A stretch of 64,000 nt of DNA from Microscillaceae bacterium (lineage in GTDB: Bacteria; Bacteroidota; Bacteroidia; Cytophagales; Microscillaceae): contig JAABSX010000003.1 in NCBI GenBank assembly GCA_011390205.1, positions 62,001-126,000 of the forward strand, read 5' to 3'. This document shows positions 6,332-21,991 of this stretch, in pieces. The position numbers were made by a program, and so were the translations under genes. The notes beneath the pieces are model-generated. The model was not told where the DNA came from. It saw only the letters and a program-made list of their open reading frames with translations, and did no database searches. Positions within the stretch are counted from its first letter, which is position 1, and every line of letters begins with the position of its first letter.

Positions 6332-6347
6332 TTTAGACTAGTCTAAA
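6332..6347. promoter_or_regulatory. Perfect 16-bp palindrome, candidate DtxR/MntR operator
   Basis: TTTAGACTAGTCTAAA is a perfect palindrome lying 16 bases upstream of the -33 element of the metal-uptake operon. It resembles DtxR-family operators built from TTAG/CTAA half sites (known for DtxR, IdeR and SirR). A weaker copy, TTTAGATTATTTTGAA, lies at 6354-6369, exactly 22 bp (two helical turns) downstream, and overlaps the -33 element. Both a fused and a free-standing DtxR-like protein are encoded in this window. Binding itself is inferred. Confidence 0.55.
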
Positions 6348-6363
6348 CTTATTTTTAGATTAT

Positions 6364-6394
6364 TTTGAAAATTATCAAAAAAGACTTAACTTTG
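6364..6394 (+). promoter_or_regulatory. Consensus Bacteroidota promoter of the metal-uptake operon
   Basis: TTTG at 6364-6367, an exact 19-base spacer and TAACTTTG at 6387-6394 match the primary sigma consensus of Bacteroidota (TTTG-N19-TAnnTTTG) without a mismatch. Transcription would begin near 6400, giving a leader of about 30 bases to the ATG at 6432. This supports that start. Confidence 0.65.
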
Positions 6395-6431: not shown

Positions 6432-7358
6432 ATGAAAATAGACAAGGCTTTTTTGGGAGTGGTGATTTTTGCTTTGGGCTTGCTAGTTGCTTGCCAGCCT
6501 AGCTCAGATAGTCAAAGCCAAGAAACTGAGGAAAAACCATTTTTTCTCAGCACCACAGGGATGATTGCAGACATTCTTAGAAATGTGGCAGGAGACAGTG
6601 CCAAAGTAGAATCACTCATGGGGGCAGGGGTAGACCCTCATCTGTATAAAGCGACTCGCCAAGATTTGAGTCAGCTTCGTGCAGCTGATGTGGTTTTTTA
6701 TAATGGATTGCATTTAGAGGGCAAAATGGCAGAAGTACTCGAGAAGCTCGGAAGGCAAAAGCCCGTCTTTGCGGTGGCAGACGGCGTTTCATCCCAAAAA
6801 ATACAAAAACTTGGAGCAGCTGCAGACCCCCACATCTGGTTTGATGTGCAGCTATGGCATGATGCAGCAGGCTACATTGCCCAAGAGCTTTCTAAAAAAT
6901 ATCCCCAACAGGCTGATTATTTTCAAAAAAATACAAAAACATACCAAGAAAAACTCCTCGTACTGGATGCAGAAGTAAGAAAAGCCCTGCTTCAGATTCC
7001 TAAAGACAGACGAGTACTGATTACCGCCCATGATGCTTTTGGATATTTTGGGAAGGCATATCAAGTGGAGGTAAAGGGCTTGCAAGGCATTTCTACCATC
7101 TCAGAGTTTGGGGTGAGAGATATGAAGGATTTGGTTGATTTTATCGTCAGACGTAAGATTAAGGCTGTATTCGTAGAGTCTTCCATTTCTCCCAAATCAC
7201 TGGAGGCAGTCGTGCGGGCATGTGCGCAAAAAGGGCATAGCATTCAGATAGGAGGCACTTTGTATTCTGATGCAATGGGAACAAAAGGAACGCCCGAAGG
7301 CACATACATCGGCATGGTCAGGGCAAATGTAAAAACAATAGTGGAGGCATTAAAATAA
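6432..7358 (+). CDS. Metal ABC transporter substrate-binding lipoprotein (YtgA/TroA/ZnuA-like)
   Basis: A 308-residue cluster A-I metal-binding protein. A lipoprotein signal peptide ends in LVAC. The usual metal ligands are visible by eye: His in GVDPHLYKAT, His in DPHIWFD, the His of TAHDAFGYF, and an acidic residue near LYSDAMG at the C-terminus. These sites bind Mn2+, Zn2+ or Fe2+; the sequence does not decide which. No His-rich loop of the ZnuA type is present, which slightly favours Mn/Fe (inference). The frame is also open from a TTG at 6420; the ATG at 6432 gives the better signal peptide. It is the first gene of a four-gene operon, 5 bases before the ATPase. Confidence 0.92.
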   Translation: MKIDKAFLGVVIFALGLLVACQPSSDSQSQETEEKPFFLSTTGMIADILRNVAGDSAKVESLMGAGVDPHLYKATRQDLSQLRAADVVFYNGLHLEGKMAEVLEKLGRQKPVFAVADGVSSQKIQKLGAAADPHIWFDVQLWHDAAGYIAQELSKKYPQQADYFQKNTKTYQEKLLVLDAEVRKALLQIPKDRRVLITAHDAFGYFGKAYQVEVKGLQGISTISEFGVRDMKDLVDFIVRRKIKAVFVESSISPKSLEAVVRACAQKGHSIQIGGTLYSDAMGTKGTPEGTYIGMVRANVKTIVEALK

Positions 7359-7363
7359 AAAAC

Positions 7364-8152
7364 ATGATACAGCAAGTAGCAAACCCCGCCATCGAGCTGC
7401 ACAGCCTTACAGTGGCTTACCAGCAAAAGCCTGTACTTTGGAATTTGGATTATACCTTGCCAGCAGGCAAACTCATAGGAATCGTGGGGCCGAATGGCTC
7501 AGGCAAAACCACCATGATTAAAAGCATCATGGGTTTGGTGCCCCTGAGCAGTGGCTATGTAAAAATATTTGACGAATCTCTAGACAAGGTAAGGTCTAGG
7601 GTAAGCTATGTGCCACAGCGAGGCTCTGTAGACTGGGATTTTCCTGTCAATGTGCTGGATGTAGTCTTGATGGGGCGAGCCAAACCTAGGCGGCTTTTTA
7701 GCCGATACAGCAGCCAAGACAAAGAAATTGCGATGGATTCACTCAAAAAAGTAAACATGGAGGCATTCGTCAAGAGGCAAATCTCTGAACTCTCGGGCGG
7801 ACAACAACAGCGGGTTTTTTTGGCAAGGGCATTGGCACAGCAAGCAGATTTATACCTCATGGATGAGCCTTTTGCAGGGGTGGATGCTTCTACCGAAAGT
7901 ACCATTATGGATTTGCTCAAATCTATGCGTGCTGAGGGCAAGACCATCGTGGTGGTGCACCATGATTTACAGACTGTCAATCATTATTTTGATTGGCTTG
8001 TACTGCTCAATACCCGTTTGATAGCTTCTGGACCTACCAAAGAGGTCTTTAACTCCGAAGCCCTCACCCAAACTTATGGGGGCAAGCTCAATATCTTGAG
8101 CCGAGTGGGTGATTTGGTCAAAGAAAAAGCCCATCCATTGAGAGAAAAATAA
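7364..8152 (+). CDS. Metal ABC transporter ATPase (YtgB/TroB-like)
   Basis: A 262-residue ABC ATPase that energises metal import. It carries Walker A GPNGSGKT (about residues 43-50), signature LSGGQQQR, Walker B LYLMDEP and the switch His in VVHHD. The Q-loop lies near VPQRGSVDWDFP, which is characteristic of the Mn/Zn importer branch. It sits 5 bases after the binding-protein gene and 44 bases before the permease-repressor fusion, consistent with one transcript. Confidence 0.95.
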   Translation: MIQQVANPAIELHSLTVAYQQKPVLWNLDYTLPAGKLIGIVGPNGSGKTTMIKSIMGLVPLSSGYVKIFDESLDKVRSRVSYVPQRGSVDWDFPVNVLDVVLMGRAKPRRLFSRYSSQDKEIAMDSLKKVNMEAFVKRQISELSGGQQQRVFLARALAQQADLYLMDEPFAGVDASTESTIMDLLKSMRAEGKTIVVVHHDLQTVNHYFDWLVLLNTRLIASGPTKEVFNSEALTQTYGGKLNILSRVGDLVKEKAHPLREK

Positions 8153-8196: not shown

Positions 8197-9507
8197 GTGC
8201 AGACATTCCTAGATTTTTTTTCATTTACTGACCCCAATGTGCGCTGGGTGGTGCTAGGCATCATGGCGATGTGTGCTGGGGCTGCATTGGTAGGGGTTTT
8301 TGCTTTTTTACAAAAGAAATCACTGGTAGGTGATGCCATTTCTCATGCCATTTTGCCTGGGATATGCTTGTCTTTTTTGATTACAGAATCCAAGGCTACT
8401 TGGGCTTTATTGCCTGGGGCATTCCTGACGGGCTGGTTTTCTCTGATAGCCATTGATTATCTCACACGGCACACCAAGCTCAAGTCAGATTCAGCAATTG
8501 CTTTAGTGCTTTCGGTGTTTTATGGAGTCGGGATTTTGCTCTTGACCATGATTCAAAACATGGAACTGGCACAGCAATCAGGGCTAGACAAGTTTTTGTT
8601 TGGCAAGGCGGCTGCGATGGTGTATGAAGATGTGCTGGTGCTGATTGGCCTAAGTATCCTGATTGCGGTGGTTATTTTTAGCTTGTACCGTCCTTTTCGT
8701 TTGCTGTCTTTTAATCCTGAGTATGCCCAAAGTTTGGGCTACCCGATTCGCTTTTTAGAAGGGCTTCTTTCGGGGCTGACGGTGCTTTCAGTGGCGATTG
8801 GTGTGCAGGCAGTTGGGGTGGTTTTAATGGCGGCCTTGCTGATTACGCCTGCTGCTACGGCACGCTACTGGACCAATAGTCTGAGTGTAATGCTAATTTT
8901 GGCTACTTTTTTTGGAGCATTTTCAGGCTTAATGGGTACATACATTTCTTATACTTACCCCCACATGCCTACGGGCCCTTGGGTGGTAACGGTGCTGTCG
9001 GTCATTGCCATTCTATCTGTTTTGCTAGGTAGAAAAAAGGGTGTACTCGCCAGCCAAAGACAACTTAGACGCAATGGACGCAAAATGCTAGAAGAAAATC
9101 TCCTCAAATGCCTTTATCATTTGGGAGAAATGGATAATGAGTGGCAAAAGAAAAGAACTTGGGCAGAAATCACGCAAAAGCGACTTTTCACAAAAAAACA
9201 ACTCCAGCGTGCTTGGAAAGCCTTGAGCCGTAAAAAATTACTGTTGGCAGACAGAGAAGGACTGCTATTAAGCAAAGAAGGTGAAAAAATGGGCAGACGC
9301 ATCACGAAGATTCATAGACTCTGGGAGCTTTACCTCACCAAACATTTGCATTTGGCTTCTGACCACGTCCACGAAGACGCAGAGGCAATAGAACACGTCA
9401 TTACCCCTGAGTTAGAAAAAGAACTAGAGCATCAGCTGGGTTATCCTGTACTAGACCCGCACGAAGAGCCGATTCCTTACAATGAAGATGATAAAAAAGA
9501 TACTTAA
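8197..9507 (+). CDS. Metal ABC permease fused to a DtxR-like repressor domain (YtgCR-like)
   Basis: A 436-residue fusion. Residues 1 to about 285 form an ABC-3 permease with several membrane helices, including the conserved VGDAISHAILPGI loop. Residues about 300-430 resemble a DtxR/MntR regulator: a degenerate winged helix (FTKKQLQRAWKALSRKKLL), then a dimerisation and metal-binding region with HRLWELYL, VHEDAEAIEH and DPHEEPIP. The ExxEH ligands match the Mn-type rather than the Cys-containing DtxR site; the N-terminal Asp ligand appears replaced by Asn. This is the architecture of chlamydial YtgCR, which is cleaved to release a repressor. Cleavage here is inference. The start is a GTG; no earlier in-frame ATG fits. 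Confidence 0.9.
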   Translation: MQTFLDFFSFTDPNVRWVVLGIMAMCAGAALVGVFAFLQKKSLVGDAISHAILPGICLSFLITESKATWALLPGAFLTGWFSLIAIDYLTRHTKLKSDSAIALVLSVFYGVGILLLTMIQNMELAQQSGLDKFLFGKAAAMVYEDVLVLIGLSILIAVVIFSLYRPFRLLSFNPEYAQSLGYPIRFLEGLLSGLTVLSVAIGVQAVGVVLMAALLITPAATARYWTNSLSVMLILATFFGAFSGLMGTYISYTYPHMPTGPWVVTVLSVIAILSVLLGRKKGVLASQRQLRRNGRKMLEENLLKCLYHLGEMDNEWQKKRTWAEITQKRLFTKKQLQRAWKALSRKKLLLADREGLLLSKEGEKMGRRITKIHRLWELYLTKHLHLASDHVHEDAEAIEHVITPELEKELEHQLGYPVLDPHEEPIPYNEDDKKDT

Positions 9508-9555
9508 GTGATTCATCACTCAAAAGAACATGACAGAAAGAAAAGAAAAAAAAGA

Positions 9556-10422
9556 ATGGATACATTTTGGATTATACTTACAGGTTCTTTAGTGGCTACT
9601 TGCAGTGCTTTGGTAGGCTGTTTTTTGGTGCTACGCAAAATGGCAATGGTGGGAGATGCCATTTCTCATGCCGTTTTGCCAGGGATAGTTTTGGCGTATT
9701 TAGTAGCTCAGACTAGAGATTCTCTACCGATGCTCATCGGGGCAGCTATTTTTGGGGTATTGATTACCATTCTGATAGAGACACTGCACCAGCAAGGTAA
9801 AATGCAAATAGATGCTGCCATTGGGCTGTCTTTCACATGGCTTTTTGCTTTGGGCGTGATTCTGATTTCGGTCTATGCAGGGCGGGTAGATTTAGACCAA
9901 GATTGTGTGCTGTATGGCGAGATTGCTTATATTCCGATTGATATTTGGTTCTGGAATGGGCAAGATATGGGCCCCAAGGCAGTCTGGCAGCTAGGAGGGC
10001 TTTTGGGAGTCATTGTTTTGCTGCTTGTTCTGGGCTACAAAGGATTGAAAATCACCACTTTCGATGAAAAATTTGCAGCCTCTTTGGGGATTTCTACCAT
10101 ATTCTGGCACTACGCCTTGATGAGTCTGGTGTCATTTACCACAGTTTTATCTTTTGAGTCGGTAGGGGCTATTTTGGTAGTGGCTTTTTTGGTAGGGCCT
10201 GCAAGCACGGCGTATTTACTTAGCAAACGCCTTTCTGAGATGTTGTTTTTAGCTGTTTTATTGGGGATTTTGGCAGCGTTAAGTGGGTATTTTTTAGCCA
10301 CATGGCTCAATGCGTCTATTGCTGGAGGTATGGCAGCCGCTGTAGGTTTAGAGTTTGTGCTGGCATTGATTTGGGTTTCTATTAAGAAAAAAAGTCTAGA
10401 GATTGCTTTTGAAGAAATATAA
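9556..10422 (+). CDS. Metal ABC transporter permease (YtgD-like)
   Basis: A 288-residue ABC-3 family membrane protein that pairs with the preceding permease to form the import channel. It has 8-9 hydrophobic segments and the family loop VGDAISHAVLPGI, nearly identical to that in its neighbour. The frame also opens at a GTG at 9508, directly after the stop of the fusion gene. That start would add a very basic 16-residue stretch, so the ATG at 9556 is preferred. It lacks a repressor tail and ends the operon at a strong hairpin. Confidence 0.92.
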   Translation: MDTFWIILTGSLVATCSALVGCFLVLRKMAMVGDAISHAVLPGIVLAYLVAQTRDSLPMLIGAAIFGVLITILIETLHQQGKMQIDAAIGLSFTWLFALGVILISVYAGRVDLDQDCVLYGEIAYIPIDIWFWNGQDMGPKAVWQLGGLLGVIVLLLVLGYKGLKITTFDEKFAASLGISTIFWHYALMSLVSFTTVLSFESVGAILVVAFLVGPASTAYLLSKRLSEMLFLAVLLGILAALSGYFLATWLNASIAGGMAAAVGLEFVLALIWVSIKKKSLEIAFEEI

Positions 10423-20148: not shown

Positions 20149-21237
20149 TCACTCAATCTTCAATTTTTTACGGATGTGTGGCGGGATGCCTTCCTTATGC
20201 ACCGTAAAAGAAGTCGTTTTGAGCAAAAGATAGGGAACTGACATATATAGATAGCCACTGAGGTTATTTGTGTCCATTCCCCAAGAGTTTTTGATGTAGT
20301 AGTACGTTTTTTTATCACTTCCCTTTGCTTTGCCTATGAGGTGCATTACGTGGTCTATCTTGGTAGAAGTATCTGCAAATGCCTGTTGTCTGGTCTCTTG
20401 TGTGATGGGCTGAAGCGTACTAGGCAAATGAGCAATTCCATTTTCATACTCAAAAGTTTCCTCAGTTACATCTCCATTCCAAGCCAAAGAATAGCCATTT
20501 TTGAGGGCATAGTCGATGGTCTCTTGCCACTCATTTAGAGGAAGATTTTGGTATTTTTGGTGTAGCCAGTTGAAAGGGTCTTCTAACACGAAACCTTGGT
20601 AAAAAGGATGATGATTGTAAGAAGTAATCGTGATATATTCTTCTGATTTGATTTTTAGGTATTCTTTTGCAAAGCTTTGAGGTGTGTAGGTTTGTCCTTT
20701 GTAAGAAAACTTTTCAGGGACTTCTCCCAAAAATTTGTCAAATGCTTGGCAATAATCTCCCATATCTTGAGAAGTAATGCCCGTAGCTTTTACTTCTAGT
20801 AGTTTTTCGGTTTTTTGTTTTACTAAGGTATCTAGCTCAGGGTGATAGTGTTTGGTGTAGTATGCCAGGCCTGAATAGGCTTCTTCCGTCATGATGCCAT
20901 TTTCTGAAATCACCTTCAAGACATCATGCACTTGCCCACCAGGGGTAAAATAATTATCTCCTTTTCGTCTAAGGTACTCATTGATTTTATTAAAATAAGA
21001 ATTTCGTGCTACAAACATTTCTGACAAATCTATGCTATCTTGCTGAATACGGATGATTTCACTTTCTAAAAAAGACAAAGAAGCAAAACTCCAGCAAGTG
21101 CCCGAATAATATTGGTCTTTGATGGAGGTGTGGGGAATGACCATCTCATTTTGCCAAGTAATGGTGTTTGTCTTTTGGGCAATGAGTGTGTAGCTGAGCA
21201 AAAGACTTAGAAAAAGGATACAAGTTTTTCTCATCAT
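20149..21237 (-). CDS. C1 family cysteine peptidase (bleomycin hydrolase/PepC-like), secreted
   Basis: A 362-residue papain-fold peptidase of the C1B (PepC/bleomycin hydrolase) type. The catalytic triad is visible: Cys in YSGTCWSFASL, His in KIDHVMHLIG and Asn in YYIKNSWGM. Unlike cytoplasmic PepC it has an N-terminal signal peptide (CILFLSLLLSYTLIAQ), so it acts in the periplasm or outside. The frame opens at a GTG at 21273, but the ATG at 21237 is the natural start (another ATG follows directly). It is shorter than typical PepC (about 440-450). Confidence 0.88.
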   Translation of the reverse strand: MMRKTCILFLSLLLSYTLIAQKTNTITWQNEMVIPHTSIKDQYYSGTCWSFASLSFLESEIIRIQQDSIDLSEMFVARNSYFNKINEYLRRKGDNYFTPGGQVHDVLKVISENGIMTEEAYSGLAYYTKHYHPELDTLVKQKTEKLLEVKATGITSQDMGDYCQAFDKFLGEVPEKFSYKGQTYTPQSFAKEYLKIKSEEYITITSYNHHPFYQGFVLEDPFNWLHQKYQNLPLNEWQETIDYALKNGYSLAWNGDVTEETFEYENGIAHLPSTLQPITQETRQQAFADTSTKIDHVMHLIGKAKGSDKKTYYYIKNSWGMDTNNLSGYLYMSVPYLLLKTTSFTVHKEGIPPHIRKKLKIE

Positions 21238-21322
21238 TGTGTGATATTTTTCCTTTTTAATCAATGATTTCACGATAAAAACGAAGATTTTGTTTCAAGT
21301 CGTGAGTGTGGTTAAAGTAAAG

Positions 21323-21991
21323 TTAGACCAATTTTGCCACATAAATATTTTCTGCCACTTCTTTAGAAATCATCAAGATATGATGTGTATTGATTTCTAT
21401 TTCTAGCGAATCATCAAACTCGATTCGGTCCAGTACCTTGAGTTGAGTGCCTATTTGGATGTTGATTTTGTTGAGGTATTTTAAGAATGGAGGCGTATTT
21501 TCTTCTACGGCGATTACCCTGAGTATTTGGTGAAAAGGAGCGTTTTTGAGATGAATGCGTTTTTGTTCTGCGATTTCACCTTTTTCATTGGGGATAGGGT
21601 CTCCGTGTGGGTCAAAAGAAGGATAATCTAAGAAAGCATCCAACCGCTCCACAAGGGTTTTTGATTGGATATGTTCTAATTGCTCTGCTATCTCGTGCAC
21701 CTCATCCCAAGTAAATTGCAGTTTTTCTACCAAGAAAGTCTCCCAAAGCCTGTGTTTTCTGACCAAGTGCAGGGCATAGTTTCGCCCTAGTTCGGTGAGG
21801 GTTACGCCTTGGTATTTCACATGATTAAGGAGTTTTTTTTGGTCTAATTTTTTGAGCATATCACTTACTGAAGCCGCACTGATGTCTATTCTTTTAGCGA
21901 TTTCATTGGTGCTGATGCCTCTTTCAGGTGTATTTTCTGAGAGATAATAAACAGCTTTTAGGTAGTCTTCTTCGGTCAGGCTTAGTTTCAT
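21323..21991 (-). CDS. Metal-dependent transcriptional regulator, DtxR/MntR family
   Basis: A 222-residue free-standing regulator with three domains: an N-terminal winged helix (STNEIAKRIDISAASVSDMLKKL), a dimerisation and metal-binding domain (RKHRLWETFLVEKLQF, VHEIAEQLEH, DPHGDPIP) and a C-terminal FeoA/SH3-like domain (about residues 150-222). ExxEH in place of the DtxR Cys ligand suggests Mn2+ sensing (inference). It probably represses metal uptake when metal is plentiful. The ytg-like operon at 6.4 kb, with its palindrome, is the obvious candidate target. Confidence 0.93.
   Translation of the reverse strand: MKLSLTEEDYLKAVYYLSENTPERGISTNEIAKRIDISAASVSDMLKKLDQKKLLNHVKYQGVTLTELGRNYALHLVRKHRLWETFLVEKLQFTWDEVHEIAEQLEHIQSKTLVERLDAFLDYPSFDPHGDPIPNEKGEIAEQKRIHLKNAPFHQILRVIAVEENTPPFLKYLNKINIQIGTQLKVLDRIEFDDSLEIEINTHHILMISKEVAENIYVAKLV

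Follow-up and report, generated by a model that had tools for sequence, protein, structure and literature searches.

In Streptococcus mutans, the DtxR-family regulator SloR recognizes SREs, 18-bp elements separated by 4 bp and hence spaced by 22 bp from centre to centre (PMC12096823). At mntH, SloR binds cooperatively to one strong and one weak site, one of which overlaps the -35 element (PMC12096823). At mneP of Bacillus subtilis, a stretch of 84 bp contains four 18-bp sites, to which MntR dimers bind cooperatively (PMC11275975). As for Bacteroidota, we found no DtxR-family or MntR operator described in the open-access literature searched.

The window, by which we mean the whole 64-kb stretch of DNA that was analyzed, contains a Psa/Mnt-type ABC metal importer operon preceded by a candidate for such an operator. 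In our judgment, it is quite probable that this is the operator-promoter region of a metal-uptake operon controlled through tandem sites by the free regulator encoded at 21323-21991, and that the DtxR-like domain fused to one of the permeases is not a DNA-binding regulator. The relevant features are as follows.

6332-6347, no strand assigned: predicted strong operator, the perfect palindrome TTTAGACTAGTCTAAA; one of two exact genomic copies; conserved 5' of dtxR and metal-uptake genes
6354-6369, no strand assigned: predicted weak second operator TTTAGATTATTTTGAA; second-best matrix score in the window; copies at ±22 conserved in 92 operators
6364-6367, + strand: putative -33 promoter element TTTG; matches the pattern, which is moderately more frequent than expected
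6387-6394, + strand: putative -7 promoter element TAACTTTG (TAnnTTTG); pattern match
6432-7358, + strand: metal-binding lipoprotein of the ZnuA/TroA/PsaA family, first gene of the operon, ATG start
7364-8152, + strand: ABC transporter ATPase; best NCBIfam hits are Mn/Fe transporters, below the cut-off
8197-9507, + strand: ABC-3 permease (aa 14-276) carrying a fused DtxR-like domain (~aa 297-430)
9085-9486, + strand: the fused DtxR-like domain; winged-helix scaffold, unconserved recognition helix, conserved metal/dimerization part
9508-10422, + strand: second ABC-3 permease
21323-21991, - strand: free DtxR/MntR-type regulator, proposed repressor at the operator; domain profile matches

A preliminary description of this DNA had pointed out the palindrome TTTAGACTAGTCTAAA, a degenerate copy 22 bp further on and the promoter-like sequence TTTG-N19-TAACTTTG, all of which lie where it had placed them. 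The second site is identical to the palindrome at 12/16 positions, its offset is exactly 22 bp (centre to centre), and its right half is weak (TTTGAA). The promoter-like sequence spans 6364-6394, 5' of the importer operon, so that the weak site overlaps the -33 element. Matches to TTTG-N17-21-TAnnTTTG occur eight times in the window for 3.25 expected, and the assignment of 6364-6394 as a Bacteroidota promoter is plausible, not proven. Likewise, a perfect 16-bp palindrome is by itself no rarity, two being present in the 64-kb window. From the start of the palindrome to the -7 box there are 55 bp, whereas in orthologous operators this distance is mostly 20-25 or 45-47 bp. Since the strong site is farther 5' of the -7 box than in most orthologues, the geometry of repression would be less standard here.

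The preliminary description had suggested looking for the 16-mer near other metal genes. In the 4.51-Mb assembly there are only two exact copies, the other being located 71 bp 5' of a TonB-dependent receptor gene, and no copy with one or two mismatches. We also scanned the window with a matrix built from 36 sites of other genomes, the sites of this genome being excluded from training. The site at 6332 ranked first in the 64 kb and that at 6354 second. According to a local Markov control, a score such as that of the second site is expected at the exact 22-bp offset about once in 4000, and anywhere in ~140 bp with a frequency of 1.25%. A third motif-like site (C28:6342), found with a degenerate pattern, was set aside as a chance match because it is inside a coaBC-like reading frame. 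Two features of the receptor genes were seen in passing. The TonB receptor under the second predicted operator is followed, 61 bp further on and on the same strand, by an M1-family peptidase gene (L011:4887-9281), and TonB receptors under the operator have in common a plug-region motif, NCxxC (NCQNC and NCNVC, in L011:6885-9281 and L117:4679-6910).

Next, we considered other Bacteroidota. In relatives, the motif is found just 5' of orthologous operons with the order dtxR - binding protein - ATPase - permease::DtxR - permease, and named Bacteroidota records from a separate scan have it in the same place before dtxR-importer operons. Further sites were seen 5' of divergent gene pairs (dtxR with NRAMP or with a TonB receptor), of genes for TonB receptors, which are homologous to one another, and of one ZIP transporter gene. 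The independent test set consisted of 89 regions 5' of free dtxR homologues across Bacteroidia. The motif was present in 66 of these at a matrix score of at least 12 and missing from 23, while in shuffled versions of the 89 regions none scored at least 14 and one scored at least 10. What is conserved is a palindromic site of ~16-20 bp 5' of the regulator's own gene and of metal-uptake genes. Comparing the upstream regions of orthologous operons, another suggestion of the preliminary description, therefore strengthens its view that the promoter of this metal-uptake operon has a DtxR-type operator, as the motif tracks free dtxR and Mn/metal transport genes across Bacteroidota. Motif-like matches in L119 and L128, which are inside genes, were left out of matrix training. 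In two Pontibacter records, operator-like palindromes lie ~1.2 kb 5' of dtxR (L131:4092 and L135:4303); on the + strand, both continue with sequence resembling the start of a FabH-type gene. In one other genome, three motif palindromes are found within 92 bp, with starts 44 and 32 bp apart (G019:C28:12802-12893).

The 22-bp spacing is a second conserved property. For the 38 sites of the first set, the best secondary site was found at exactly ±22 much more frequently than at other offsets. It was at ±22 in 34 of 66 independent operators as well, while column-permuted matrices (n = 300) applied to these 66 placed it there 3.9 times on average and 24 times at most. When 92 operators are aligned, TTTAG..CTAAA reappears in the columns at +22 and -22. 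The ±22 signal in these 92 loci has z values of 7.3 and 7.0. At least one good half-site is found at ±22 in 75/92 operators, as compared with 38 at ±23, 21 at ±21 and 4-23 at the remaining distances. For targets other than dtxR, +22 again ranks first among the offsets, by a narrow lead (11 sites). We also looked for a third site at ±44, and the evidence for it is not convincing (z of 0.7 and 1.6).

Could this signal instead come from lone operators, each with a -7 box (TAnnTTTG), or that of a divergent promoter, at a constant distance? Many +22 sites do have TAnnTTTG in register, the distance from the palindrome start to the -7 box peaks at 24 bp, and several -22 sites resemble reverse -7 boxes. 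However, the outer half-site CTAAA at +33..+37, which falls outside the -7 box, is itself enriched about tenfold at +22 (28/92 for 2.9 expected), and the outer half-site at -22 is enriched fivefold (15/92 for 3.1 expected). Moreover, the ±22 signal persists in loci devoid of a -7-like sequence, with z values of 4.2 (n = 15) and 3.0 (n = 21) in what are small sets, and the 6354 site of the window does not coincide with the -7 box. We consequently regard the -7 box as an improbable source of the signal and favor tandem operators. The 22-bp tandem, whose significance had been proposed from this one locus, is borne out by the weak copy at exactly ±22 bp, which is a conserved feature of these operators. 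The sites are 22 bp apart (18 bp + 4 bp), as in cooperative MntR/SloR-type arrays. Since this spacing equals that of the SloR sites, and the MntR array at mneP is comparable, we infer on good grounds that binding at the tandem sites is cooperative.

Which protein would bind there? As for the product of 21323-21991, it has the domain composition of a free DtxR/TroR-type regulator, with Pfam matches to Fe_dep_repress, Fe_dep_repr_C and FeoA, which correspond to the DNA-binding, metal/dimerization and FeoA/SH3-like domains. Its recognition helix follows the pattern (A/P)ASVSDMLKKL, near-invariant in 39 free regulators including this one. The strict Mn-specific MntR ligand set (Asp8 + Glu11) is incomplete, Asp9 being present and Lys12 occupying the Glu11 position. 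Because of this Lys, we do not class the protein as a strict MntR; with its SH3-like domain, it appears to resemble the TroR/ScaR/SloR/DR2539 type, and SloR is among its best sequence relatives in the PDB. Both Mn and Fe are candidates for the metal sensed. A gene for a papain-like C1 peptidase (20149-21273) lies directly downstream on the same strand. Because the motif tracks dtxR genes and the recognition helix is near-invariant in free regulators, the predicted operator most likely belongs to the free DtxR-family regulator. In the family to which the window belongs, dtxR lies apart from the importer operon and has no motif upstream, which is why the link between regulator and operator in this genome is by homology.

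The permease-fused domain presents a different picture. In an AlphaFold2 model of the fusion (pLDDT of 91.7), it adopts a winged-helix scaffold with a wing hairpin, and a long helix, modeled at residues 283-313, links it to the membrane part. Foldseek matches this C-terminal part to DR2539, ScaR and SloR, with DR2539 as the closest fold in the PDB. In 24 fusions, the metal ligands H80, E84, H99, E106 and H107 are present in 24/24 and E103 in 23/24, while the helix-turn-helix is unconserved. Mean identity in the metal/dimer part is 56% among fusions and 69% among free regulators. When this genome is compared with a relative from its own family, this part is 81% identical in the fused protein and 90% in the free one. 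In two sets of fusions, the dimerization domain Fe_dep_repr_C was matched in 19/19 and 33/34. The idea that an Asn at the MntR Asp8 position represents a lost ligand in the fused domain was dropped, since free regulators carry Asn there in 21/36 cases.

According to the preliminary description, the fused domain and the free regulator might compete for or share the operator, which would make the transporter a membrane-tethered repressor. The winged-helix scaffold kept in the model, an alignment with DNA-bound DR2539 at a TM of 0.82, and the location of both genes within 16 kb all speak for this. However, mean identity in the recognition helix is 24% in fusions as opposed to 67% in free regulators, and between the two relatives just compared it is 3/12 for the fused protein and 12/12 for the free one. 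The DNA-binding Pfam domain Fe_dep_repress was matched in 0/19 and 0/34 fusions, against 18/18 free regulators. In another genome (G031), the fusion gene stands alone, no Fe_dep_repress protein was found, and the only motif-like site is on a different contig from the fusion. With the recognition helix unconserved and no DNA-binding match in the fusions tested, the claim finds no support, and we consider a shared operator very unlikely. Apparently, the scaffold of the fused domain remains and its ability to recognize DNA has been lost. Because the metal/dimer part is conserved and the DNA-reading part is not, the fused domain is most likely a sensor of cytoplasmic metal that acts directly on transport; alternatively, it might have a structural or metal-storage role.

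Permease-DtxR fusions are found in records from Bacteroidota, Planctomycetota, Verrucomicrobiota, Latescibacterota and Spirochaetota, and the literature searched contained nothing relevant on them. Several relatives have lone fusion genes, with no adjacent binding protein or ATPase (L067, L069, L070, L072, L073, L074 and L088).

Fur and Zur control similar operons elsewhere and chance palindromes of this size occur (two in the window), but it is highly improbable that the palindrome serves either of them, or forms an RNA hairpin or terminator, since it lies 5' of the promoter, making its transcription unlikely, and the motif specifically tracks dtxR genes, own promoters included.

The motif, its regulon-wide conservation, its link with free dtxR genes, the ±22 spacing and the lost conservation of the recognition helix in the fusion were computed. 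Our reading of control by the free regulator through tandem sites adds what we infer about binding, cooperativity, repression, the identity of the metal and the function of the fused domain. With Mn(II) and/or Fe(II) in sufficient supply, a metal-loaded dimer would occupy the strong palindrome at 6332-6347 and help a second dimer onto the weak site at 6354-6369, 22 bp downstream, where it would cover the -33 box and block RNA polymerase. At low metal, the operon would be released. The same regulator would control the TonB receptor gene with the only other copy of the 16-mer, this shared control coordinating uptake across the outer and inner membranes. Whether feedback operates on two levels, the free DtxR repressing the operon via a 22-bp phased array and the permease-fused fold, devoid of DNA recognition, reading the same metal and shutting the transporter (trans-inhibition), is in our view evenly balanced.

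The operator wwTTTAGRYNNRYCTAAAww allows Mn/Fe-uptake regulons to be read off Bacteroidota genomes. Throughout the phylum, operators have kept weak sites on their flanks at exactly 22 bp, so that the cooperative spacing described in Firmicutes seems to be a property of the DtxR family in general. A free repressor can be told apart from a transporter-fused DtxR-like domain, and the latter is a testable case for a metal sensor of transport. The operator itself belongs to a known kind; it is the conserved weak flanking sites and the fusion without DNA recognition that are worth following.

Finally, this locus can be set beside characterized systems. The permease part has the same fold as the PsaBC Mn importer of Streptococcus pneumoniae (7KYP; TM of 0.9 and 30% identity by Foldseek), whose solved permease of ~280 residues is without a C-terminal DtxR-like domain. 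TroR of Treponema denticola is, as proposed here, a Mn/Fe-dependent repressor of an importer (troABCD), with an 18-bp promoter dyad and an SH3-like domain (PMC2628430). The available part of that account describes one dyad rather than tandem sites, places the regulator gene in the same locus (troABCDR), whereas the window's regulator is apart from the operon, and does not mention a fused permease (PMC2628430). DR2539 of Deinococcus radiodurans, which represses an NRAMP gene in response to Mn(II)/Fe(II), has a Lys in place of MntR Glu11 like the free regulator, but its operator context is different and it is not fused to a permease (PMC3327659). B. subtilis MntR, which unlike the free regulator is without an SH3-like domain, activates efflux genes at mneP (PMC11275975), whereas here the targets are uptake genes and would be repressed. 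The SloR operator consists of AATTAA/TTTTAA repeats instead of TTTAG..CTAAA (PMC12096823), and the present system, known from sequence alone, has its predicted strong site upstream and a putative Bacteroidota-type rather than a sigma-70 promoter. Nevertheless, SloR, with its targets sloABC/mntH, is a Mn regulator of the DtxR family that controls an ABC Mn importer (PMC12096823), as proposed for the operon described here.
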